From Pseudomonas cavernae (GTDB lineage: Bacteria > Pseudomonadota > Gammaproteobacteria > Pseudomonadales > Pseudomonadaceae): a stretch of 64,000 bases of DNA. Of this stretch, positions 21,892-33,229 are shown one piece after another (the first letter of the stretch is position 1; every line of letters begins with the position of its first letter). The notes under the pieces are model-generated. The model was not told the DNA's origin. It saw only the letters and a program-made list of their open reading frames with translations, and did not search any database. The stretch spans positions 1,054,001-1,118,000 of the forward strand of contig NZ_CP032419.1 of the NCBI RefSeq assembly GCF_003595175.1, read 5' to 3'. A program made the translations under genes and the position numbers.

Positions 21892-21940
21892 CGTCAAGCG
21901 CAGTGCGGCAAAATGTGCCATTCATCTGCAAGGAATCCCC

Positions 21941-22018
21941 ATGGACGCCGCAAAACCCGCGCTAATTCGCGAAACTTTCCCGGTCGGCCCGCTGCAGTGC
22001 AACTGCATTCATGGATAA
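21941..22018 (+). pseudogene. 5' fragment of the MBL-fold hydrolase gene
   Basis: Encodes MDAAKPALIRETFPVGPLQCNC then IHG and a stop; the intact gene at 32585 begins MEAAKTALIRETFSVGPLQCNC (both given up to the cysteine pair). The homology stops in the attL core. The fragment is the displaced chromosomal (or older island) start of the target gene. Confidence 0.85.
21993..22007 (+). other. attL core of the integrative element
   Basis: TGCAGTGCAACTGCA, identical to 32637-32651. Both lie inside codons for the LQCN part of the MBL-fold protein start. The sequence is a near-palindrome, as expected for strand-exchange sites of tyrosine recombinases. Confidence 0.8.
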
Positions 22019-22444
22019 GTTTTTAGGTAGCTGATTTTAAAGGGATTTTGTTGTTTTTATATTTAGAATCAACAGGTTGTGTTGTTGCAGTGTGATGCAA
22101 TAACACGCGCTTTTTTGCAGTGTTTGGCGCATTGGGTGTGCCAGTTTTGTGCCAAAGAGAAGGAGTGATTCTTCCCCCCTGAGAAGCGATACCTCACGTC
22201 CTTTGCCTGGTTGTTGCTAGATACAGAAGGCCTGCCTGGTAGTCAGCGGTTCTTCCCCGCTTCATGCAGATTTCATCTGTGGCACGCCTGCCTCCCCTAT
22301 GAACTGGCTAGCACTGTCAATTGGTAAGAAATCCCCGCAAACCGTACCGTGAGTCCTGTAGCGCGTTGCATGAATCTGGCGGCATTCGCAAACCAATGCA
22401 GCCAAGAGCACGAATCGTGATCTGGCTGATACGAGTGCCAGGCC
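22019..22444. other. AT-rich left arm of the integrative element, no gene
   Basis: A 426-base stretch, markedly AT-rich in its first ~150 bases (runs such as gattttgttgtttttatattta). I see no convincing gene. Such regions next to attL commonly hold integrase-arm and host-factor binding sites; none can be assigned here. Confidence 0.5.
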
Positions 22445-22726
22445 ATGCAAGCTCTGCTTACCGTCGATCAGCTTTCCCTCTATCTGCAAAAGTCAGTAGC
22501 GAGCATCCGTAGTGACGTTACGCGCAATCCCTTAGCTCTTCCTCCGATTTGCCGGCTGCCGGGCACTAAAAGGTTGCTGTGGCGGGTGGAGGATGTGGAG
22601 AAGTGGCTGGCAGAGCATGTAGTCATCGCGGACGTAACTGTTCCTTCTACCGCTTCGGAGTCTGTTAGACGGGGACGCCCAACCAAGGCAGAGCAGGTTA
22701 GCCGTCAGCGGCGTGTGGTTCGATGA
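22445..22726 (+). CDS. AlpA/excisionase-like DNA-binding protein
   Basis: 93 residues with an N-terminal MerR-like/Helix_turn_helix_17 motif: LLTVDQLSLYLQKSVASIR, then a wing ending in RLLWRVEDVEKWLAEH, the arrangement seen in AlpA and excisionase-type proteins of islands. The basic tail (RRGRPTKAEQ...RQRRVVR) fits DNA binding. The stop overlaps the next gene's start (22723), so it is translated with the TrfA-like initiator. It probably controls excision and/or replication (inference). Confidence 0.75.
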   Translation: MQALLTVDQLSLYLQKSVASIRSDVTRNPLALPPICRLPGTKRLLWRVEDVEKWLAEHVVIADVTVPSTASESVRRGRPTKAEQVSRQRRVVR

Positions 22727-23595
22727 ACCAAGAGCGTTCTGCTGTTCCGGTTTCGCTTGCAGCTCGCCTGGAGTGCATCCGGAGATCTGCGCCGGTTAAG
22801 GAGCGGGTTCAGCCCGCTCCTCGTCGACTGTTCTTGCCAGGCCTCCATGAATTTTACCGGGCAATGCCTAACCATATTGCACGCTCCAGTTTGTTTGCCC
22901 CTGTGGCGCGGGGAGCGAAGCAGATGCACAAGGCGACCGTGCTGGTCAGTCGAAAGGATGCAGTCCTAACTTACTGGGGCGAGCAGTTGGATGAGACTCA
23001 GGCTGATGTTTGGATGCAGTTGATGTACGAGGCCATAAAGGCTCCGCTGGGGGAGCCAGTGCCTATCAATCGTGCCAAGTTGCTGAAAGCAATCGGTAGG
23101 AAAACCGGAAATTACGAGTATCAATGGCTGCACCGAACGATGAAGGCTTTGACCTTTGCGATGCTTGTTGTCGAGACGACCAAGCAAGGCAAACCCAAGC
23201 TTGATGTCGGTAAAGCCGAGTCTCTGCACATGCTCGACAAGTTCGCTTATGACCCCGCGCGTGAGTGCTACACGATCTCTATCGACCCGAGGTGGCAGCT
23301 CCTTTATGGAAACAGCGAATATGCGTTGATCGACTGGGAGAAGCGATTGCGGATTCGCAAGGGGCAGGACATCGCCAAGGCTTTGCAGCGATTGGTGTGT
23401 ACCTCTGATGAATCTGTGCAGCGCTTTCGATTGAGCTGGCTGAAGGAGCGTTTGCAGTATTTCAGCCCGATGTGCAAGTTCAGAATGTCACTCAAGGCTG
23501 CCATGCAAGAGCTGGAGCGCGTTGAGATCATTGCTGCTGCGCGCATCGAGATGAGTTCCAAGGGGGAAGAGCAGGTTGTGTGGGTGCGGCTGTAG
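22723..23595 (+). CDS. TrfA-like replication initiator
   Basis: 290 residues resembling the TrfA replication-initiator family of broad-host-range plasmids: SLFAPVARGAKQ, then a region with LTYWGEQLDETQADVWMQLMYEA and the DNA-binding IGRKTGNYEYQWLHRTMKALTFAML part, and the C-terminal wing near SPMCKFRMSLKAAMQEL. It overlaps the upstream AlpA-like gene by four bases. Five 22-bp direct repeats follow immediately downstream, the expected binding target. An internal start near residue 69 (MHKATVLVSR) might give a shorter form, as in RK2, but that is speculation. Confidence 0.8.
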   Translation: MNQERSAVPVSLAARLECIRRSAPVKERVQPAPRRLFLPGLHEFYRAMPNHIARSSLFAPVARGAKQMHKATVLVSRKDAVLTYWGEQLDETQADVWMQLMYEAIKAPLGEPVPINRAKLLKAIGRKTGNYEYQWLHRTMKALTFAMLVVETTKQGKPKLDVGKAESLHMLDKFAYDPARECYTISIDPRWQLLYGNSEYALIDWEKRLRIRKGQDIAKALQRLVCTSDESVQRFRLSWLKERLQYFSPMCKFRMSLKAAMQELERVEIIAAARIEMSSKGEEQVVWVRL

Positions 23596-23606
23596 CGCAG
23601 CGCAGC

Positions 23607-23716
23607 CATCGGGGTTGCATTCCACCAGCATCGGGGTTGGATTCCACCAGCATCGGGGTTGGATTCCATTTTAATCGGGGTTGCGTTCCACCGGCATCGG
23701 GGTTGCATTCGTTCCC
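23607..23716 (+). repeat. Five phased 22-bp iterons (candidate origin)
   Basis: Units begin at 23607, 23629, 23651, 23673 and 23695, each 22 bases with the core ATCGGGGTTGNNTTC. Unit 1 reads CATCGGGGTTGCATTCCACC. The third and fifth units diverge at their ends. Spacing is exact with no gaps, unlike CRISPR, and each unit is two helical turns, so all lie on one face of DNA. Confidence 0.92.
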
Positions 23717-23802
23717 TTGCACTGTAAGCCCCGGCTGGCGTGGGTTGTAGAGGTGATAAATGCTCTCTACCTTTCTTCTACCCTATATCTACCAATCAAG
23801 CC

Positions 23803-23811
23803 TGTGGATAA
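23803..23811 (-). promoter_or_regulatory. DnaA box
   Basis: TGTGGATAA, a perfect match to the DnaA consensus TTATCCACA on the minus strand. It lies ~90 bases after the iterons and after an AT-rich patch (gataaatgctctctacc ... ctatatctaccaat). Together with the TrfA-like gene this makes an iteron-type origin probable. Confidence 0.7.
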
Positions 23812-23862
23812 CTTTTTCTCCGAGCAGGTGGTCCTCCGGGTATTAGCTGCATTCGCTCATGG

Positions 23863-24576
23863 CTACAGGCGCGCGAACTCTAGCGAAGTGACCCAGGCGG
23901 GCTTAAGAGCAATCCGCGCTCTCTCTATCTCGATGATCTCTTGTCTCACGGCTTCAAATACCCCAAGTGCAGTAAGCCTACTCTTTGCTTCGGTCGTTTC
24001 TAAGTTTTTAAGGGTTTGTTCATATGCATTGTGGGCTCTTGAAAAACCATTTCCGTCCGAGAATCTTGAATAAGGATCTGTGATTGACAAAAACCTATAT
24101 ATTGAAAGTGACGAAAGCAGGGAGCTTTCTCCATGGACGAGGATTGTCATAAAAAATTTGTTTATTGCATTTTCTATAGAGTCTTTTTCTGAAATTTTGC
24201 ATGTATTTTTGATGTTTTCTGATAGATTTTGGGTGTCTCCCCATAGGGCAGTCCATAGTCCTTCTGGTCCACTCCAGTACTTATTTTCGATATTGCCAAA
24301 AATTTGGTCAAGCATTTTTAGTATCTGATCAGGATGGCGGCTGACATTGCCTTTGAAGTACTTGTAAAGCCGGTTGGAGTCAACTAAGTCTGGCCAGCTA
24401 AGATTTGAGGCATTCTCTTGAATCCATATACTGAATTGGTGAGGGTTTTTAGCTCTAACCTCAATTCTTAGTGTGTTCATGAGTGCGATTGTTCGCAGTT
24501 TTATTTGGATTTTTCTGTTTGTTGGTGCTGGCATATGGCGGGTCGTAATGCGTTGGTTGGTAGTCAATATATTCAT
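23863..24576 (-). CDS. Unknown protein of the integrative element
   Basis: Up to 237 residues; starts at 24576, 24534 or 24480 are possible and none has a good ribosome-binding site. GC is clearly lower than the chromosome. It is predicted mostly helical, with WSGPEGLWTALWGD and EAVRQEIIEIERARIALK segments. I recognise no family. Its position between the origin and cargo, and the phased TGACGT motifs in front of it, suggest a regulated accessory gene, but function is open. Confidence 0.6.
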   Translation of the reverse strand: MNILTTNQRITTRHMPAPTNRKIQIKLRTIALMNTLRIEVRAKNPHQFSIWIQENASNLSWPDLVDSNRLYKYFKGNVSRHPDQILKMLDQIFGNIENKYWSGPEGLWTALWGDTQNLSENIKNTCKISEKDSIENAINKFFMTILVHGESSLLSSLSIYRFLSITDPYSRFSDGNGFSRAHNAYEQTLKNLETTEAKSRLTALGVFEAVRQEIIEIERARIALKPAWVTSLEFARL

Positions 24577-24653
24577 CGGCTGTTGCGTTGGTCAACAGTG
24601 CTTTGCGTTGTGTTGCACGAAACGAATTTGATACGTGCCTAGTTGCAAGCAAG

Positions 24654-24691
24654 TGACGTGAGAGTGACGTATAAGTGCGCAGGGATGACGT
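24654..24691 (+). promoter_or_regulatory. Three helically spaced TGACGT motifs
   Basis: TGACGT at 24654, 24665 and 24686, spaced 11 and 21 bases (one and two helical turns). They sit between the divergent unknown gene and the antidote remnant. This looks like an operator for an element-encoded regulator; no regulator is assigned. Confidence 0.45.
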
Positions 24692-24856
24692 AAAAATGCA
24701 TGTTAATTGCAGGAGAATGACAAGGCCTCTTGCGATTGTCGTCTTAGAATTAAGGGCAGGATGTGTGAGGTAGGCCTACCGTCTACTTCACCACCTGCTT
24801 TATTCGCCTATGGCTCAACAGGATTTTCGCGGTGCGAAATATGGAGGGAGAAAACG

Positions 24857-25036
24857 TTGTCCAGTCAGAAGCTACGGCCGTTTGACGTGGTCGCCCACAT
24901 TGAGGATGAGGAGACTATTCGGGCCTACCTGCAGGCCGCTCTTGATGATCCTACGCCAGGGACTCTATGGCTTGCCCTGGACAACGTGGCTAAGGCGCGG
25001 GAGAGGATTTCGGCCAATAAACAGGTTCGCGATTAG
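24857..25036 (+). pseudogene. Truncated addiction-module antidote gene
   Basis: TTG 24857 behind GGAGGGAG gives 59 residues. FDVVAHIEDEETIRAYLQAALDD and the following NVAKARE match the N-terminal half of the HigA-like 'addiction module antidote' family (normally ~95-100 residues), given here by family memory. The C-terminal helix-turn-helix half (usually beginning GMSQLA...) is absent, replaced by RISANKQVRD and a stop. No RelE/ParE-type toxin gene is visible next to it. It is probably a decayed toxin-antitoxin locus. Confidence 0.6.
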
Positions 25037-25429
25037 CAAACCTATCTAGGCTACCTTTTGGCTCAGGCTACAGACCATGCTCAAGTTTGACTGCCCAAGT
25101 GGCTGCAGGGGGCAAAGCGTCCAATGACCTTGATTGAGGGCTTGGATTGCGTTCAGCACCGCTGGTGGGATTTCTGCTGGGTTACGCTGGCACTGCTTCT
25201 TTTTGTTGATGTTAGACAGTCATATGCGTAATTGCATTTACTTGGCCGCTTAGTTGCACTCGTGCTTACCACCACTTGCATCCGACTTGACCAGTAGAAG
25301 GTGGAGACGCGATGGGCAGAGATCGACCCATTGCGGACCTCGCACTGCTTGCGGCTATGTAGGTAGGCAGGGTTCTTGCCGGGCATTACAGTGTTAGTCG
25401 TTTTCTCAGCAAAAGGGATTTGCGACTGA
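25037..25429. other. 393-base gap without gene
   Basis: No plausible gene or repeat seen. The last ~60 bases must hold the promoter and the AAAAGGGAT ribosome-binding site of the GspC-like gene. Confidence 0.5.
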
Positions 25430-26029
25430 ATGAAGCGCGTAGCTATGCGACTGTGGTACTACCGCCTCACGCCGCTGCTGGCATTCGGCGCGGTCTGTTT
25501 GCTTATGATATTCAGCCTGGTTCACCAGCTTCAGCAATGGAGAGCGCTCCTGACTGAGCAACCTCAAACCGTCGCAACGTCGCCCGCTCCTAGCCGTGGT
25601 GCCGTTGACCTGGTGCAGCTCAGTGGACTGTTCGGGACTGCCGCCGCACCTAATGCTCCGCCCCGTAGTACCAGCTTGCCTTTGACGCTCATGGGAAGTT
25701 TTGTGAGTGCCCAAGGAGACCGCTCTACTGCACTGATCAAGGTGTCCGGCAAGCCATCGCAACGCGTTCTCGTGGGGCAAGAGGTGATGCCGGGGATCCG
25801 CCTTGAGAGCGTTCATCCCCAACATGCGGTCATTCTGCGTGAAGGCGTCACGGAGCTATTGCTCTTTCCCCGAGCGAAGGAAGCGCGTCTGAGTCTTCGT
25901 GGCGGAGATCAAGCCGCGTATCCGGCGTTCAGCACTGCACAGCTGGGCAAGCTACCCGCAGTGCAGATGGCTAAGCAGGCCCGGCGCAGATTCGAGCTCC
26001 TGCTGCAAGGTATGAACTCCGAGCAATAA
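25430..26029 (+). CDS. Orphan GspC/XcpP-like type II secretion protein
   Basis: 199 residues with the GspC plan: short cytoplasmic start, one membrane helix (about residues 13-31, LTPLLAFGAVCLLMIFSL), a proline/serine linker. Then comes the homology-region domain LSGLFG ... LPLTLMGSFVSAQGDRSTALI ... VLVGQEVMPGIRLESVHPQHAVILREG (about 64-145). The PDZ or coiled-coil end is missing, replaced by a ~50-residue polar tail. In T2SS, GspC links inner-membrane parts to the outer-membrane secretin and helps select cargo. No other gsp genes are near, so it would act with a chromosomal system. It is followed by secreted RHS genes. Confidence 0.78.
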   Translation: MKRVAMRLWYYRLTPLLAFGAVCLLMIFSLVHQLQQWRALLTEQPQTVATSPAPSRGAVDLVQLSGLFGTAAAPNAPPRSTSLPLTLMGSFVSAQGDRSTALIKVSGKPSQRVLVGQEVMPGIRLESVHPQHAVILREGVTELLLFPRAKEARLSLRGGDQAAYPAFSTAQLGKLPAVQMAKQARRRFELLLQGMNSEQ

Positions 26030-26147
26030 CGACTTGCCAGGTGTGTGGCGCGAAACATTTTGCGAGGTAGTTGGCATTCCCAGGTGGAAGGACTGCAAAT
26101 CGCTATCTAGCCTCTCAGCACACCACATCCACGGCAGGATATTGAAC

Positions 26148-27794
26148 ATGGACCGTTCCCCTCGCGGGCTATTGCTCGGTTTGGCATTCTTCGCTTGCAC
26201 ACTCACCCACCCTTCCAGCTTCGCCGCTTCCAACTGCACGACCGGCGGTGTGAGCTTCTTCGGTACTGAAGTCTATGCCGCTCCTCAAACGCCGAATGGT
26301 TTGGGCGAGTACCTGTACAACATCGCGGGTTTGCAATGCTCTGGAGGTGTTGTAATCAAGTGGACCGAGACCAGCGCTTGGTACACGCCCGATCAGATGC
26401 TCGATACCCTCAAGTCGAGCAATCCAAATCTGAAGCGCGCGTTCTCCAATACGTGCAAAACCCACGCAGTGTTGCTGCATGACAACTTCACCGGCTCGGT
26501 CGATGGAGTCGCAGCCAGCAGCTATGCGGTTGCCAAGCAAACGCACTTCGATGTGTTTGCAGGCCCCGTGTTCTATCCTCGCCCGGCTGAGCTGCTCTGC
26601 CCAGAGACCGCCGGCTTGGGGGCGCCTGATTTACCGGGTACCTGCCCCGTCCAGTCTGCCGAACCAGCGTTAGCCAGCCCCGGCGCACCCAGCCTCAGCA
26701 AAGCCGATCCGGTCAATGTGTCGAACGGCAACAGCTACCAAGTCGAGATGGACTACCCGGGCCAGCCGGGCTCGCAGATGAACTTCGCCCGGTACTACAA
26801 CAGCCGGACCGCGAACTGGACTCACACGTACTCGGCCAAGCTGAAGATTGCACCCACCAAGGTGATGCTGATCAACACCGATGGTCGCGAAAGCCTCTTC
26901 ACTCGCAGTGGCAGTGTGGTCACCGCCTCCCCGAAAGAACTGGGCGTGCTCGAGCAGACAGCTTCCGGCTGGCGTTACGACAACACCTACAACGAGCACC
27001 TGCACTTCAACACCTCCGGGCAGCTGACTCGTATCGACCGCGCCAATGGCTCTTACGAGACCCTGACCTACGGCACGAACAACATCGTGATCACCGACTC
27101 GCTCGCCCGCACCATGACGCTCACCTTCAATACGGCGAAGCGCCTGACCGGGTTGACGGCAGGCTCGCTCTCGGTGGCATACACCTACAGCACTGCTGGA
27201 CGGGTGACCACGGTAACCCGCACTCAGGGCGGGCAGAGCAAGTCCCGCACCTACCACTATGAAGACACGCGAGAAGGCGGCTGGCTCACCGGCATTACCG
27301 ATGAACGCAATATCCGCTATGTCACTTGGGCCTACGACGCTCAAGGGCGGGTGATCCGCAACGAGTTGAACGGCGTTCAGAACAAGTACCTGTTCGCCTA
27401 CAACGGCAACGGCTCGACAACGGTCACCAACCCCCTGAACAAGCAGGCTACCTATACCTTCCAGGCTGTTGCGGGTGCCCAGCGCATCACCTCGTTGGCG
27501 GGCGCTGCTTCGGCCAACTGCCCGAGCAGTAATTCCACGTTCACGTACAACACCCGCGGCTTGATCGCGACCCGTACGGACAACAAGGGCTACGTCACTA
27601 CCTATACCTACGACGCTCGTGGTTTGGAGAACTCACGGACCGAAGCATCTGGGACGCCGCAGGCCCGCACCATTACCACCGAATGGCATACGACTTTCTA
27701 TAAGCCAGTGACGATTACCGAGCCGGAACGTGTTCTGCACTTCGAATACGACACCCAAGGAAACGTGCTCAGCCAAACCATCACTGCGCTCTGA
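26148..27794 (+). CDS. Secreted RHS protein, N-terminal half
   Basis: 548 residues from ATG 26148 behind AGGAT. A Sec signal peptide (GLLLGLAFFACTLTHPSSFAA) is followed by a Cys-containing region, then an RHS start domain of the DUF6531 type (DPVNVSNGNSYQVEMDYPG, RYYNSR) at about 185-240. Many YD-type repeats follow (YDAQGRVIRNEL, YDARGLENSR, EYDTQGNVLSQ). The reading frame stops just after SQTITAL, in the middle of a repeat array rather than at a natural end. The array continues in the next gene. On its own this half lacks the conserved RHS closing motif and toxin tail. Confidence 0.88.
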   Translation: MDRSPRGLLLGLAFFACTLTHPSSFAASNCTTGGVSFFGTEVYAAPQTPNGLGEYLYNIAGLQCSGGVVIKWTETSAWYTPDQMLDTLKSSNPNLKRAFSNTCKTHAVLLHDNFTGSVDGVAASSYAVAKQTHFDVFAGPVFYPRPAELLCPETAGLGAPDLPGTCPVQSAEPALASPGAPSLSKADPVNVSNGNSYQVEMDYPGQPGSQMNFARYYNSRTANWTHTYSAKLKIAPTKVMLINTDGRESLFTRSGSVVTASPKELGVLEQTASGWRYDNTYNEHLHFNTSGQLTRIDRANGSYETLTYGTNNIVITDSLARTMTLTFNTAKRLTGLTAGSLSVAYTYSTAGRVTTVTRTQGGQSKSRTYHYEDTREGGWLTGITDERNIRYVTWAYDAQGRVIRNELNGVQNKYLFAYNGNGSTTVTNPLNKQATYTFQAVAGAQRITSLAGAASANCPSSNSTFTYNTRGLIATRTDNKGYVTTYTYDARGLENSRTEASGTPQARTITTEWHTTFYKPVTITEPERVLHFEYDTQGNVLSQTITAL

Positions 27795-27811
27795 TCAGAA
27801 GGAACTGAATC

Positions 27812-30622
27812 ATGAAGATCGTGCATCGCACTAACTTGCTCGGTGTGGCTCTGGCAGCAGCGTTGGGCCTTTCCACAGCCCAAGCCACAGACCGCAGTTG
27901 GAATTACACCTACAACAGCCTTGGCCTGGTCGAAACTGCCGATGGCCCGCGCACTGACGTCAACGACGTCACCACGTACGCGTATGACGCCCAGGGCCGC
28001 TTGACCCAGGTGACCAACGCGCTAGGCCACATCACTCAACTGTCGAGCTTCAACAGTTATGGCAGTCCGCAAACGGTGGTCGATGCAAACAACGTCACCT
28101 CCACGCTGACCTATACCCCACAGGGGTGGTTGGCTTCAGTCAGTTCCGGCGGCAGCACCACCAGTTTCGAGCATGACGCCATTGGCCAGATCACCAAGGT
28201 CACCCGCGGCGACGGCAGCTTCCTGCAGTACACGTGGAACGGTGCCCGTCGGTTGACCGCCATTACCAATAACTTGGGTGAGAAGATCGAGTACGACTAC
28301 GACCTTATGGGCAACCGTACGGCCCAACGGCTGAAGAATGCTTCCAGCACCCTCACTCAGCAGCAGACTTGGGCCTACGACGAACTCGGTCGCCTACTCC
28401 GATCGATTGGAGCGCAGAGTCAGACTCAACAGTTTGGCTACGACCTCAATGACAACCCCATTCTCAGCACCACGCCCAAGCTGCATAGCACCACCAGCAG
28501 CTATGACGCGCTCAATCGCCTGGTATCCAACACCGATCCCCTCAATGGGGTCACAGCCCTGGGCTATGACGGTCAGGACAACCTGACTCAGGTTACCGAC
28601 CCTCGCGGTGTGGTGACCCAGTATCAGTACGACGGCTTGGGCAACCTGACCCAACTGATCAGCCCGGACAGCGGAACCACCACCTACACACACGACGCCG
28701 CCGGCAATGTGATCAGTAGGACCGATGCTCGTGGGGTGGTCACAACCTACAGCTACGATGCGCTCAACCGTCTAACGGGTCGTCAGTACCCCGCGACTCC
28801 GGCGCTCAACGTGCAGTACCACTACGACATGACGGCTGGCGGCAACCACGGCGTTGGGCGCCTGACCGCCGTGCAGGACGCTAGCGGCGTGCTGGGTTAC
28901 CACTACGATGCCCGCGGTAATTTGGTGGAGCAGATCCGTTCGATGGATGTGGCGGGCAACCCTGCCTACGACAGCCTGGAATATGCCTATGACGGTGCAA
29001 ATCAACTGACCAGCATCGCTTATCCGGCGGGTTTTGCGGTGGAGTACCAGCGCAACAGCGCTGGCCAGGTCAGCGAAGTGGACATTGTTGTTAACGGCCA
29101 GACTCCCTCCGCCTTTGCCACCGGCATCAGCTATCTGCCGTTCGGTCCACTGAACGGCCTGACCTGGGCCAATGGTCTGACCCTCTCGCGGAGCTACGAC
29201 CAGGACTACCGGCTCACCCAGCAGAGCGTCGGCCCATGGCAAGCCACGTATGGTTACGACGCCAACAGCAACATCGAGAGTCTGCAAAGCGGGCTGTTCG
29301 GTGACCTACTGTACGGTTACGACGCGCTGGACCGGCTAACCAGCGAGGAGCACGCCACCGAGCGGAAAGGCTACGGCTACGACGCGGTTGGCAATCGGAC
29401 ATCCAAGACTGTCACCGTTCTAGACAACGGTGTGCCGCAGAGCAGCACCACCAGCACGTTGAGCTATGCCTCCACTAGCAATCGGCTGACTCAGATCGAT
29501 AGCCAGGCAGTGACCAGCGACGCAACGGGTAATCTCACTCAGGACCGCGCCAACCGCGAACTGGAGTACGACGCTCAAGGGCGTTTGGCCAAGGTCAAGA
29601 TCAGTGGCGGTGTCGTCGCCGAGTACCGCTACAACGCTCTCGGTCAGCGCACCCACAAAATCACCGGCTCGACGATTACCACCTTTCTCTACGGTCCGAA
29701 TGGACAACTGCTCGGCGAAACCAGTTACAGCACTGCAGGCGCCAAGCTCGGTAGCCAGTACTACTTGTGGCTGGATAGTCTGCCCATTGGGGGGCTGACC
29801 CTGACCTACGATGCCAATGGTGCCGTCACCGCTAGCACTGCTTTCTATCTGCACGCCGACCACCTCAATACCCCACGCCTGGCGACCAACCAGGCTGGCC
29901 AGGAAGTCTGGCGCTGGAAATCCGATGCTTTCGGAAATGATGCAACAACGGGCTCGCTGAGCATCAATCTCCGTTTCCCAGGGCAGTACTTCGACAGCGA
30001 AAGTGGGCTGTCTTACAACTACTTCCGCGATTACGACCCGCAGACCGGGCGCTATGTCGAGAGTGATCCGATTGGGTTGAATGGGGGGCTGAATACCTAT
30101 GGGTATGTGGAGGGGAATCCGTTTAAGTTTACTGACCAGTACGGTTTAGCCGCCGAAGGGGCTGTTGCTGGAGGAGTTCTTGGCGGGGCCACAGGAGCAT
30201 TGGTCTGCGGTGCGGCAGCAGGCGCGCTTTGCTCCCCAGCAGGTCCTGGCGCACTAGCTTGTGCCGCTCCGGCGGCAGCCGAATGTGGTGCGTGGGGTGC
30301 TGCGGGAGGTGCCGCAGCTGGCAGTCTGATTCAAGACACATACAACATGTGTCGAAACCTATTTAATGAATCATCTGATGATAACAGTGGTGCAGATACA
30401 GCTCCTGATGCACCGTACCCAGAGAACCCTGATAACTCTCGTGATAAATTCCGCCCTGTAAAAGGTACTGGAGCCAAGGTCAATTCTGATGATGGCTCTG
30501 TCTGGGAGCGTGACACATCTAGTCATGGAGGGGATCAATGGAAACGGTGGCCCGACAAAAAATCGTGGGAGAAAGGGAAAACACCAAATAGTGTTTGGCC
30601 GGACGGCAGAGTGAGAAAGTAA
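27812..30622 (+). CDS. Secreted RHS protein, C-terminal half with toxin-like tail
   Basis: 936 residues, ATG 27812 after AGAAGGA. It opens with its own signal peptide (LLGVALAAALGLSTAQA, cleavage before TDRSW), then resumes YD repeats as if continuing the upstream protein (YNSLGLVETADGPRTD, YAYDAQGRLTQ). The RHS core closes at RYYD-type DYDPQTGRYVESDPIGL (about residue 740-755) and NPFKFTDQYGL (to ~777). Then follow an Ala/Gly-rich hydrophobic linker (780-840) and a polar ~90-residue tail with SVWERDTSSHGGDQWKRW and PNSVWPDGRVRK. Such tails are the variable toxins of RHS proteins; an RNase-like activity is only a guess. Confidence 0.88.
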   Translation: MKIVHRTNLLGVALAAALGLSTAQATDRSWNYTYNSLGLVETADGPRTDVNDVTTYAYDAQGRLTQVTNALGHITQLSSFNSYGSPQTVVDANNVTSTLTYTPQGWLASVSSGGSTTSFEHDAIGQITKVTRGDGSFLQYTWNGARRLTAITNNLGEKIEYDYDLMGNRTAQRLKNASSTLTQQQTWAYDELGRLLRSIGAQSQTQQFGYDLNDNPILSTTPKLHSTTSSYDALNRLVSNTDPLNGVTALGYDGQDNLTQVTDPRGVVTQYQYDGLGNLTQLISPDSGTTTYTHDAAGNVISRTDARGVVTTYSYDALNRLTGRQYPATPALNVQYHYDMTAGGNHGVGRLTAVQDASGVLGYHYDARGNLVEQIRSMDVAGNPAYDSLEYAYDGANQLTSIAYPAGFAVEYQRNSAGQVSEVDIVVNGQTPSAFATGISYLPFGPLNGLTWANGLTLSRSYDQDYRLTQQSVGPWQATYGYDANSNIESLQSGLFGDLLYGYDALDRLTSEEHATERKGYGYDAVGNRTSKTVTVLDNGVPQSSTTSTLSYASTSNRLTQIDSQAVTSDATGNLTQDRANRELEYDAQGRLAKVKISGGVVAEYRYNALGQRTHKITGSTITTFLYGPNGQLLGETSYSTAGAKLGSQYYLWLDSLPIGGLTLTYDANGAVTASTAFYLHADHLNTPRLATNQAGQEVWRWKSDAFGNDATTGSLSINLRFPGQYFDSESGLSYNYFRDYDPQTGRYVESDPIGLNGGLNTYGYVEGNPFKFTDQYGLAAEGAVAGGVLGGATGALVCGAAAGALCSPAGPGALACAAPAAAECGAWGAAGGAAAGSLIQDTYNMCRNLFNESSDDNSGADTAPDAPYPENPDNSRDKFRPVKGTGAKVNSDDGSVWERDTSSHGGDQWKRWPDKKSWEKGKTPNSVWPDGRVRK

Positions 30623-30623
30623 T

Positions 30624-31025
30624 ATGCATAATACGACGCCATACTCCTTTGACATACTATTCAAGCGAGCTATCAAAGAGTGGCCAATTGAGGTTGATCT
30701 AAAGATCACTCCCCCTGGTCTTATTAGCACACCTCTTTATAGTGTCGAAGGTTTAGGAAAGCTAGCTGATGATTTGGGGGAGAGACATATAGGCTCCCAA
30801 GAGGAAGTGCTCATGCGCAACCTGCATGACGCTATATGCTCAGTTCTGCATCAAATAGCTCTCTTTTCAACGAGAGTCAGAGTTCAGGACTTAAGGCAGG
30901 AGACCGTCAAGTCAAAGCTCGGGGTTTCATTGAAAGAGGCGCTGAACAATCAAGATTTAGGCTGGGACGAGCAAGATCTGAAATTGATATCAGATTACTT
31001 AAGATTCGAAGGTGAAAGTCCGTAG
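30624..31025 (+). CDS. Candidate immunity protein
   Basis: 133 residues, starting one base after the RHS stop codon, in low-GC sequence like the toxin tail. No signal peptide is seen and no family is recognised. The position directly behind a variable RHS C-terminus is where the cognate immunity gene is expected, so the assignment rests on context alone. A GCGGGTC-acct-GACCCGC hairpin follows at about 31034-31051. Confidence 0.6.
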   Translation: MHNTTPYSFDILFKRAIKEWPIEVDLKITPPGLISTPLYSVEGLGKLADDLGERHIGSQEEVLMRNLHDAICSVLHQIALFSTRVRVQDLRQETVKSKLGVSLKEALNNQDLGWDEQDLKLISDYLRFEGESP

Positions 31026-31421
31026 CCTTGTAGAGCGGGTCACCTGACCCGCGTGTAACAGACCGCTACGGCTTACCTTCTAGCCGTAGCGCGCCATCCC
31101 AAATCCCCGATGTGTCCCTCCGGGCTCCAATTGTCTTACCTGCAGAGTGGCGGCGTCTCGCGCCCTGGCGTCGTGGAGTCTGCTCAATCCTGAAGACTCA
31201 CTCACGCTAGCCGTATCAACTTATGCAGCAGGGTGTTCAGGCTTTTTCGGTTTTAAGTATCACGTTCCGCCAGCAGGGTGTTCAGGTTGGGGCAGCGCCT
31301 ACACCTGTGGGGGCCGGAAGATTTAATACGGCCTGCTGGTTAGGGTTGATACCCTGTGCCGGAAAGAACTGAACGCCTTGCTGGTCATCGCCCCCTTGCG
31401 GTGAGCAAACCTTTCGCGCCA
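31026..31421. other. Gap with hairpin and short direct repeats
   Basis: No gene seen. It contains GCGGGTC/GACCCGC (possible terminator) and two copies of CAGCAGGGTGTTCAGG (about 31229 and 31271). The repeats could be recombinase arm sites or remnants of older sequence. Confidence 0.5.
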
Positions 31422-32534
31422 TTAAGTAAGTTTTTTTGCAAGGTCTTCGGTTCGGGGGTGGTAGTAGCGCATTAGCATTCGTGTGTCCTGGTGACCGGTA
31501 ATCTTGGTTAGCTCGTGCAGCGGGAAAATTTCGGCCAGGCGCGAGGTGGCTTCATGGCGTAGGTCATGGAAGCGCAGATCCATCAGAAACGGGTCGTCGC
31601 TGATGCGCTTGTCGATCTTATCCTGAGAGAGCTTCTTCTGTTTGAGGTGGAGGCTTAGCCCTATTGTGTATGTGCTACGTGCATCGGCGATAGCGTCCGC
31701 GAATGCCTTGGTGATTGAGTCCGGCCGGCTCTTAAAGCAGCGTCCATCGTCTCGTTCGGTGAGACTTTCCAGTATCTCCACTGCCTTGCTGGAAAGGGGC
31801 ACGCCACGGGCAGAGCCGTTCTTGGTTACGGGAAGTAGGGCGACCCGCTTGTCCAGGTTTACGTTGGTGCGAAGCAGGCCAGTTATTTCGCTACGGCGCA
31901 TCGCCGATTCCACGGCGAAGGCGACAATCTTTGGCAGCTCGGCCGAGCGAGAGTGGCGGCAGATCATTTCCAGCTCGTCCAGGTGCTCGCATACCAGCTT
32001 CCCGTCTTTGCGCGTCCACACATCTGCGCTGAGGATTCGCCGTTCGCGGGCATCATCCACGCTCGGTTGGCGGATCAGTTCGACGGGGTTGCTCAGTGAT
32101 TCCATGCGCCACTCTTTGCGGGCGATAGTGAATACGTGAGAGATCAGGGCCAGCTCGCGGCGCACGGTGGAGGGAGCCATGCCTTCTTCGAGGCGCATGT
32201 CACGGTAAGTGGCCATGTCGGAGCCACGAATGCTGGCAAGCGAGCGAAGTGCCAGTGGGTGGCGTTGCATGGCCTGGATGCGCGATAGCTCGGAGGCGCT
32301 GCTGCGCTTCTTGCTAGTCACCTCCTTGGCGTACAACTCCAGCGCGCTGGAGAAAGAGGTGGCCTCGGCTTCGTTGCGGCTGACGAATATGCCGGCATCC
32401 ATTTCGCGCTCGATCATGGTCGCCCAGGTTTTTGCCTCTGCCAGGGTATTGAATGTGCGGGTCTGTTGGGGCCACCCTTTACGTCTGATTTGGGCGTGCC
32501 ACTGGTAAGGGCCTTTCTTCCTGAACGTCGCCAT
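31422..32534 (-). CDS. Tyrosine recombinase / integrase
   Basis: 370 residues from ATG 32534 (MATFRKKG; an ATG 12 bases earlier is possible). An N-terminal arm-type DNA-binding segment (WHAQIRRKGWPQQTRTFNT) is followed by a SAM-like core-binding domain and the catalytic domain. Catalytic residues are Arg in SAMRRSEITGLLR, Lys in VTKNGSARGVPL, His-x-x-Arg in FHDLRHEATSRL, His in ITGHQDTRM and Tyr in LMRYYHPR. It begins ~50 bases from the MBL gene and ~100 from attR, the usual place for an integrase of an element using a gene start as target. Confidence 0.95.
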   Translation of the reverse strand: MATFRKKGPYQWHAQIRRKGWPQQTRTFNTLAEAKTWATMIEREMDAGIFVSRNEAEATSFSSALELYAKEVTSKKRSSASELSRIQAMQRHPLALRSLASIRGSDMATYRDMRLEEGMAPSTVRRELALISHVFTIARKEWRMESLSNPVELIRQPSVDDARERRILSADVWTRKDGKLVCEHLDELEMICRHSRSAELPKIVAFAVESAMRRSEITGLLRTNVNLDKRVALLPVTKNGSARGVPLSSKAVEILESLTERDDGRCFKSRPDSITKAFADAIADARSTYTIGLSLHLKQKKLSQDKIDKRISDDPFLMDLRFHDLRHEATSRLAEIFPLHELTKITGHQDTRMLMRYYHPRTEDLAKKLT

Positions 32535-32584
32535 CTTCAACCGCACTGTGCCAAAATTGTGCCATCAATCCTACAGGAACACCC

Positions 32585-33229
32585 ATGGAAGCCGCAAAGA
32601 CCGCGCTAATCCGCGAAACATTCTCCGTAGGGCCTTTGCAGTGCAACTGCACCATCATCGGCGACCCTGTGACCAAGCAGGCCATCGTGGTCGATCCGGG
32701 CGGCAATCCCGAGCTGATCATGGCGCGCCTGGAGGCGCACGGCCTCAAGGTGGTGAGCATCATCCACACCCATGCGCATCTCGATCACTTCCTCGCCTCC
32801 GGGCAGATGAAGGAGCAGACCGGCGCGACCCTGCACCTGCACCAGGGCGACCAGTTCCTCTGGGACAACCTGGAGATGCAGTGCAACATGTTCGGCGTGC
32901 CCTACAGCCCGGTGCCGGCGCCGGACCAGTGGCTCAAGGACGACGAAGAGCTGGCCTGCGGCTGCGGCGTGGCGCTGCACACCCCCGGGCACACGCCGGG
33001 CTCGATGAGCTTCTGGTTCCCCGCGGCCAAGCTGCTGATCGCCGGCGACACCCTGTTCAAGCGCGGCATCGGCCGCACCGACCTGTGGGGCGGCGACTAC
33101 GCCACCATCGAGCGCTCGATCAAGCAGCGCCTGTACAGCCTCGACGAGGAGGCCACGGTGGTCACCGGTCACGGCCCGGACACCCGCCTCGGCGACGAGA
33201 TGCGCGAGAATCCCTTTATTCGCGCCTGA
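32585..33229 (+). CDS. MBL-fold metallo-hydrolase (glyoxalase II-like)
   Basis: 214 residues. Zinc-ligand motifs are complete: HTHAHLDHF (about residue 60), HTPGHTPGSMSF, IAGDTLF and VVTGHGPDTRLGDE. It belongs to the glyoxalase II-like group of small metallo-beta-lactamase-fold hydrolases; the substrate is unknown. Its first ~22 codons come from the integrative element, since attR lies at codons 18-22; the protein stays intact. A homologous 5' fragment remains at 21941. Confidence 0.92.
   Translation: MEAAKTALIRETFSVGPLQCNCTIIGDPVTKQAIVVDPGGNPELIMARLEAHGLKVVSIIHTHAHLDHFLASGQMKEQTGATLHLHQGDQFLWDNLEMQCNMFGVPYSPVPAPDQWLKDDEELACGCGVALHTPGHTPGSMSFWFPAAKLLIAGDTLFKRGIGRTDLWGGDYATIERSIKQRLYSLDEEATVVTGHGPDTRLGDEMRENPFIRA
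32637..32651 (+). other. attR core of the integrative element
   Basis: TGCAGTGCAACTGCA, identical to attL at 21993-22007, inside the MBL-fold coding sequence. Confidence 0.8.

Follow-up and report, generated by a model that had tools for sequence, protein, structure and literature searches.

An array of RHS repeats in Pseudomonas cavernae ends at a stop codon and is resumed a few bases downstream in a second gene, and the question raised by this locus is whether a single toxin shell has been broken there or whether one shell is made of two separately exported chains. The locus was analysed in a window of 64,000 nucleotides (contig NZ_CP032419.1, positions 1,054,001 to 1,118,000 of the forward strand), to which all coordinates refer; features lie on the plus strand unless stated otherwise. 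The first gene, A (26148..27794), has a frame of 548 residues opening at ATG 26148 (a TTG at 26034 being possible too) with a probable Sec signal peptide, MDRSPRGLLLGLAFFACTLTHPSSFA (26148..26225), and it finishes with residues SQTITAL and a TGA at 27792-27794. The 17 bases that follow (27795-27811), TCAGAAGGAACTGAATC, contain the motif AGAAGGA, which resembles a ribosome-binding site for the second gene, B; stop, gap and motif together span 27792..27811, and the gap and motif are similar in many relatives. Gene B (27812..30622) starts at ATG 27812 and encodes 936 residues, its N-terminus being a probable Sec signal peptide, MKIVHRTNLLGVALAAALGLSTAQA (27812..27886), followed by TDRSWNYTYNSLG; both cleavage points were judged by eye. 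Directly after this second signal peptide the array resumes at SWNYTYNSLG, the next repeat. The window sequence therefore bears out the first-pass annotation, which had described an array stopping at SQTITAL, a 17-base gap, a new ATG with a signal peptide, and resumption.

The frame of B is offset by +2 relative to that of A, and a second TGA occurs in A's own frame at 27813, so that the seam can be explained neither by read-through of a stop nor by a single nonsense mutation. Both halves are under purifying selection, the ratio of nonsynonymous to synonymous substitution rates (dN/dS) against P. benzenivorans being 0.107 (A) and 0.102 (B shell). The earlier assertion that a nonsense mutation could not create this arrangement stands, since the B start, its signal peptide and, in most cases, a site resembling a ribosome-binding site are kept across species and both halves are selected.

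Distribution of the two genes was analysed in the genus with A and with the first 172 residues of B as queries, each against 398 genomes; no more than 3 first-look candidates for A and 8 for B were scored in any genome, and carrier counts are therefore lower bounds. A was carried by at least 28 genomes (E 1e-20) and strong B matches (E 1e-30 or better) were likewise found in at least 28, while the 24 weaker B matches among those listed, to E 1e-12, all lay in frames of more than 1,100 residues. The two sets had 27 genomes in common, one of them single-chain (G374) and 26 split, including seven single-contig assemblies and one genome (G233) where the adjacent A and B are both incomplete. A occurred without strong B in G151, as one chain of 1,415 residues. 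A second half standing alone, the case that would have spoken for B as a complete protein, was encountered in one of the 28 strong-B genomes (G376), where a contig end is close to B and 73 C-terminal residues of an A frame remain. In the order-wide search, covering 293 genomes, there were 41 carriers (E 1e-20), and split and single-chain types occurred side by side.

A set of named loci (L numbers) was then formed from the best 80 of 407 confirmed stretches, corresponding to 79 loci; since the best-scoring stretches were kept, this set is biased towards the kind seen in the window. Hosts included Pseudomonas, Stutzerimonas, Marinobacterium, Motiliproteus, Luteibacter, Dyella, Nitrotoga, Nitrosomonas and Methylobacter, among others. 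Profile searches of open reading frames assigned 43 loci as split at the A-B seam and 28 as unbroken there, the remainder being interrupted by contig ends (7) or damaged (L218). Single-chain relatives of the family thus exist, with two of the 28 broken further on and several running off contigs or ending early. Three single-frame relatives (L236, L237 and L256) end early within the B part. Two genomes (L103/L212 and L113) have a B gene that is interrupted near residue 480-500, either by damage or by an additional break, and the P. cavernae genome contains elsewhere (G000:C1:2544700-2545032) a broken RHS fragment with 62% identity to B residues 436-546. In the split loci, the start of B ranged from 4 bases within A (ATGA-type overlap) to 66 bases past it and was 15-21 bases past A in 20 of the 43, with a Shine-Dalgarno-like motif, generously defined, at most 16 bases before B in 32. 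Signal peptides were called by our own heuristic rather than SignalP, and a later in-frame start may be picked by it. All 43 B partners had a call ahead of the shell, as did 49 of the 53 A genes in these loci and 25 of 29 unbroken ones; by comparison, in a stretch of E. coli DNA the heuristic was positive for 9 of 42 annotated genes (of 48 coding genes, six very short or cut ones being excluded).

The A-B border recurs in many species, within the genus and beyond, and the split exported shell is a real, conserved two-gene arrangement and no accident of one genome. Sequencing error or a decaying pseudogene could draw on the broken B genes of L103/L212 and L113 and on the RHS remnant in the same genome. 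Set against these are the same seam in many species (with the seven single-contig genomes among them), the conserved signal peptide, the frame offset of 2 and dN/dS values of about 0.1. Error, nonsense mutation, read-through and decay were accordingly rejected on the recurrent seam, the frame offset and selection, and we regard error or decay as having next to no probability.

What the two chains may build is indicated by their domains. Pfam assigned DUF6531 and RHS_repeat to A, and 12 RHS_repeat stretches plus an RHS match under its cut-off to B; PF05593 was present in both, and Rhs_assc_core (TIGR03696, NCBIfam) was above cut-off in B. DUF6531 (PF20148; A residues 187-251, 26706..26900) begins the part of A that can be aligned to solved Rhs shells, and model residues 152-547 of A align with residues 271-686 of RhsA (7q97). 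When compared with single-chain RHS proteins, a check proposed at the outset, single-chain models of the halves fitted complementary, partly overlapping parts of solved single-chain Rhs shells. The shell part of B (residues 26-779, 27887..30148) includes the Rhs_assc_core together with Asp752 and Asp775. These two residues occupy the sites of the Rhs autoprotease pair, are invariant in 33 aligned rows and precede a PxxxxDPxGL-type motif, from which the window's PFKFTDQYGL departs at one position; an Rhs aspartyl autoprotease signature is present in B, and cleavage is predicted.

The variable C-terminal end of B (30149..30619) comprises 157 residues and is a predicted toxin. It matched no Pfam or NCBIfam family above cut-off, and solved structures gave a chance-level match only (E 1.1). 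C-termini were compared for 34 named loci and the window, B genes without a full core or cut by contig ends being dropped, and among these 35 sequences (101-177 residues) only 8 of 595 pairs were related. One base 3' of B lies a gene of 133 residues (30624..31025) with no evident signal peptide and no Pfam or NCBIfam family above cut-off, a predicted cytoplasmic immunity gene. The window C-terminus (44% identity over 149 residues) and this gene, again immediately 3' of it, recur together in Marinobacterium stanieri (L189; E 5.9e-26 and 6.9e-16, respectively), on a B shell only 41% identical to that of the window. A hypervariable C-terminus and an adjacent predicted immunity gene that travels with it are hallmarks of polymorphic toxin systems, and this locus shows both.

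What the computations show is the structure of the genes and its conservation, the co-occurrence of the halves, the selection on them, their fold and complementary coverage, and a hypervariable end whose downstream gene travels with it. The explanation that we put forward, and as a whole consider probable, is that A and B form a two-chain toxin shell of TcB/TcC-like type that is, however, Sec-exported and assembles in the periplasm, and whose exit is probably by the type II secretion system (T2SS). The two would be chains of one RHS shell belonging to an antibacterial polymorphic toxin, each crossing the inner membrane separately via Sec. In the periplasm, A, with DUF6531 as the plug and about the first third of the barrel, would dock onto B, which would contribute the remaining barrel, the aspartyl autoprotease and the toxin; once docked, A would seal the cleaved toxin inside the closed shell. 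The short gene downstream of B would shield the producer's cytoplasm, and the assembled particle would probably exit through the T2SS, with the neighbouring GspC-like protein of the P. cavernae strain perhaps acting as adaptor.

Several observations weigh against this explanation, some of them concerning the chains and others the exit route. For four of the 53 A genes no signal peptide was called. The template fits of A and B overlap by about 85-105 residues, tentatively read as extra repeats. Six A proteins from three genomes outside the genus (L122, L129, L131, L133, L135 and L140) extend 145-773 residues beyond the seam; of the two scanned, L131 carries RTX repeats and L122 TSP3 repeats. 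Such overruns could indicate that A is a separate exported RHS-fold protein (an adhesin, a chaperone or a decoy) and only an operon partner of B, as could the tandem A genes, of which there are two in 9 of the 43 split loci and four in L091 and L120, and the order A-B-A at L102/L207. This alternative is at odds with the single-chain relatives, which carry both parts in one polypeptide and among which those of Nitrotoga have re-fused them (see below), with the complementary fit of A and B to a single-chain shell, and with the rarity of strong B without A, seen once in 28 genomes and near a contig end. It seems to us quite improbable.

As to the exit route, a neighbouring T2SS gene was present at only 5 of the 43 named split loci, the queries being gspC and gspF-M only, with no formal null. 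Two near-complete genomes with both A and B (G258 and G490) gave no T2SSC or T2SSG match. The T2SS is moreover widespread anyway, T2SSG being found in 179 of 199 genus genomes vs 43 of 45 genomes with an A match, and its presence in carriers was dropped as evidence because it is uninformative. Exit of a two-chain shell by surface display, lysis or vesicles would be in keeping with these two genomes and with the other 38 loci, and bacterial teneurin-like proteins have been suggested to act at the surface (PMC13018210); this possibility, compatible with the shell itself, deserves attention even if we rather doubt it. It is opposed by the genes that do adjoin the operon. Immediately 5' of A in the window is an orphan GspC-like (T2SSC) gene (25430..26029; PF11356, E 2.6e-15), a candidate T2SS adaptor and the second T2SSC of this genome, the other being about 2 kb from a secretin, and homologues precede A in three other genomes (L181, the same as L086; L184; L222). 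In L189, gspG-H-I-J-K-L-M (Pfam) stand immediately upstream of A. Since there are 0-4 T2SSG matches per genome, chance adjacency of T2SS genes should be rare. In addition, the activity of the RHS bacteriocin Bcn-A of Xanthomonas perforans depends on xpsD (PMC7259588), so that an RHS bacteriocin can rely on the T2SS. Exit of the assembled A-B shell by type II secretion is plausible.

Other T2SS genes were noted around the family. A gspF gene is downstream of B in L199 and L097; gspG is also present at L199, and a family search found it in the L097 genome. The single-chain locus L105 has gspF-G downstream and T2SSC beyond. In L124 and L138, a T2SSG-like gene is directly 3' of B, in the place expected for the immunity gene, and the protein of L138 (L138:7287-7733) has no N-methylation match in Pfam. 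A weak pseudopilin match at L230 (E 1.5e-5) resembles a type IV pilin and was disregarded. Upstream open reading frames of the named loci were listed mechanically, and a closer look was given to L189, L190 and L192. By eye, L189, L190, L192, L199 and L222 seemingly share one N-terminal A type (FTSP...GQGGADA...GTVTATLNG), seen in L189, L190, L192 and the start of L097 and with less certainty in L199 and L222; T2SS genes adjoin three of those five loci.

The history of the two halves is not entirely shared. Over 35 complete loci, pairwise distances of A and B were correlated (r 0.50, 0 of 2000 shuffles as high), and those of A and the C-terminal domain were not (r -0.03, equalled or exceeded in 1426 of 2000 shuffles). 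In seven loci (L187, L190, L198, L199, L202, L214 and L222), identity to the window is 72-79% for the B shell and only 42-50% for the A shell, with 48-60% over the last 48 residues of A rising to 79-85% at B residues 28-80; for L183, A is at 73% and B at 63%. Part of this step is an ordinary difference in conservation (44 vs 58% for L210). The pattern suggests that A also turns over independently of B, as if exchangeable. Distal A copies of tandem loci showed a dN/dS of 0.25 (L200 vs L201). Besides the known swaps of C-terminal toxins, these data suggest that N-terminal halves are replaced and also stockpiled, as tandem A genes before one B.

For the A part, a tree of 82 rows was built by a quick method, leaving out A domains shorter than 300 profile positions and those split-type A genes whose loci were classed as edge or A-alone. 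The split label required 2 changes on it, vs 24.2 with shuffled labels; whether the split is older than the other single chains would depend on the root. Two single chains of Nitrotoga were nested among split rows, beside L193, with a support of 99. In the B tree, which needs 4 changes and carries a long-branch warning (L224), they join the split row L183 (support 100) within a set of 24 rows, 22 of them split (support 98). The junction of one of them (L196) reads ...SQTS-VGTNAPAERT-WTYTYT, the inner signal peptide being lost. Judged from these sequences, the Nitrotoga chains are a natural re-fusion of the two halves.

Breaks were also found at other places. In L255 (Silvimonas), the break is near position 158 of the B profile, the first part is repeated in tandem, and the next chain, interrupted by the contig end, has at its start a signal peptide and a CBM5/12 domain. 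Two breaks occur in L235, one near position 174 and one in the core, its later chains each having a signal peptide call, and L136 has, besides the A-B seam, a core break after which the later chain has its own call. L139 and L234 were rejected as three-chain shells, the extra signal-bearing core gene of each duplicating part of the B core and filling no gap. Cleanly complementary later breaks are therefore restricted to L136 and L235, and a middle seam to L255. These cases suggest that exported RHS shells have been fragmented repeatedly, at several seams, so that two or three chains are each exported on their own. The split could instead be a neutral ratchet, a chance fission kept although two chains bring no gain, in line with the A tree, where the split label changes only twice and one change is the nested re-fusion, and with the tolerance of Nitrotoga for that re-fusion; an advantage is rather suggested by the breaks with new signal peptides at other seams (L255, L235 and L136) and by the independent turnover of A. 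We hold such neutrality, which is compatible with a two-chain shell, to be conceivable and somewhat doubtful. The broader proposal, in which the first half is an exchangeable cartridge for a constant B and exported RHS shells have repeatedly been cut and assembled outside the inner membrane, is offered tentatively, as an idea that comes fairly close to likely without reaching it.

The operon itself lies within a low-GC island of about 10.6 kb (21910-32651; about 44-61% GC vs 63-71% around), bounded by direct, imperfect repeats of 98 bases (21910..22007 and 32554..32651; 80%). The island contains a TrfA-like replication gene and, at its right edge, a phage-type integrase (31422..32546, minus strand; PF00589). 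The right repeat lies at the 5' end of a gene (32585-33229) which, from its HTHAHLDH motif, we take to be metallo-beta-lactamase-like.

Rhs cocoons have so far been viewed as closed containers of one chain or, in the case of Tc toxins, of two chains co-produced in the cytoplasm. Separately Sec-exported halves raise the question of how a large closed barrel folds around its cargo in the periplasm, and A-B would offer biochemistry an Rhs system that comes naturally in two pieces. An exchangeable first half would give polymorphic toxins a second variable axis, and the GspC-like neighbour may be a handle on the choice of T2SS substrates.

Among the closest known systems is the TcB-TcC (BC) component of insecticidal Tc toxins, in which two proteins form one hollow RHS shell and the cargo is the C-terminus of the second chain, cleaved by an aspartyl autoprotease (PMC11067744, PMC8765631). 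Two genes for one RHS shell, with the toxin at the end of the second chain, would be common to both, as deduced here from genes and models. Unlike TcB, A has no SpvB or beta-propeller match (Pfam at E 0.01 giving only DUF6531 and RHS_repeat), and TcC chains (4igl_D, 5kis_B and 6l7i_G) align only from about B residue 220, so that the Tc seam differs from the A-B seam. The Photorhabdus B and C subunits studied are described as having no recognisable export sequence and requiring co-production in the cytoplasm, the C subunit alone having reached the periplasm (PMC3789776); a survey does mention a signal peptide preceding SpvB in TcdB/TcaC proteins (PMC3482391).

As regards export, the window genes recall the signal-peptide-bearing RHS toxins, of which WapA is a member. 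The T2SS/Sec class of RHS polymorphic toxins has a signal peptide, an RHS array, a variable C-terminus and an immunity gene (PMC3482391); its description is of one chain, whereas the window has two genes and two signal peptides. Bcn-A, an RHS bacteriocin with an immunity gene, is T2SS-dependent and active in supernatants (PMC7259588), and differs, when descriptions are compared, in being a single chain of 1,398 residues that needs two further small open reading frames for activity. Effectors of the type VI secretion system (RhsA, Tse5, Tre23 and RhsP) rank high among the solved structures matched by each half, and their plug, barrel and autoprotease would have counterparts in A-B; they differ from A-B, which has two chains, Sec signals and no PAAR match in A (Pfam, E 0.01). 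Bacterial teneurin-like proteins are RHS/YD shell toxins with immunity genes, some with predicted signal peptides (PMC13018210). Their solved entries are single chains of more than 2,000 residues with FN-plug and NHL parts, for which the window A and B gave no Pfam match at E 0.01; PF25023 matched B of one of ten relatives, under its cut-off. The first-pass annotation was aware of no described RHS system of this kind, a statement that fails for two chains as such, TcB-TcC being known, and holds for the double Sec signal and this seam, no two-chain RHS shell with both having been found among titles and abstracts of open-licence PMC articles, preprints excluded. Two-chain RHS shells and signal-bearing RHS toxins are each known, and their combination, as read from these genes, appears new.
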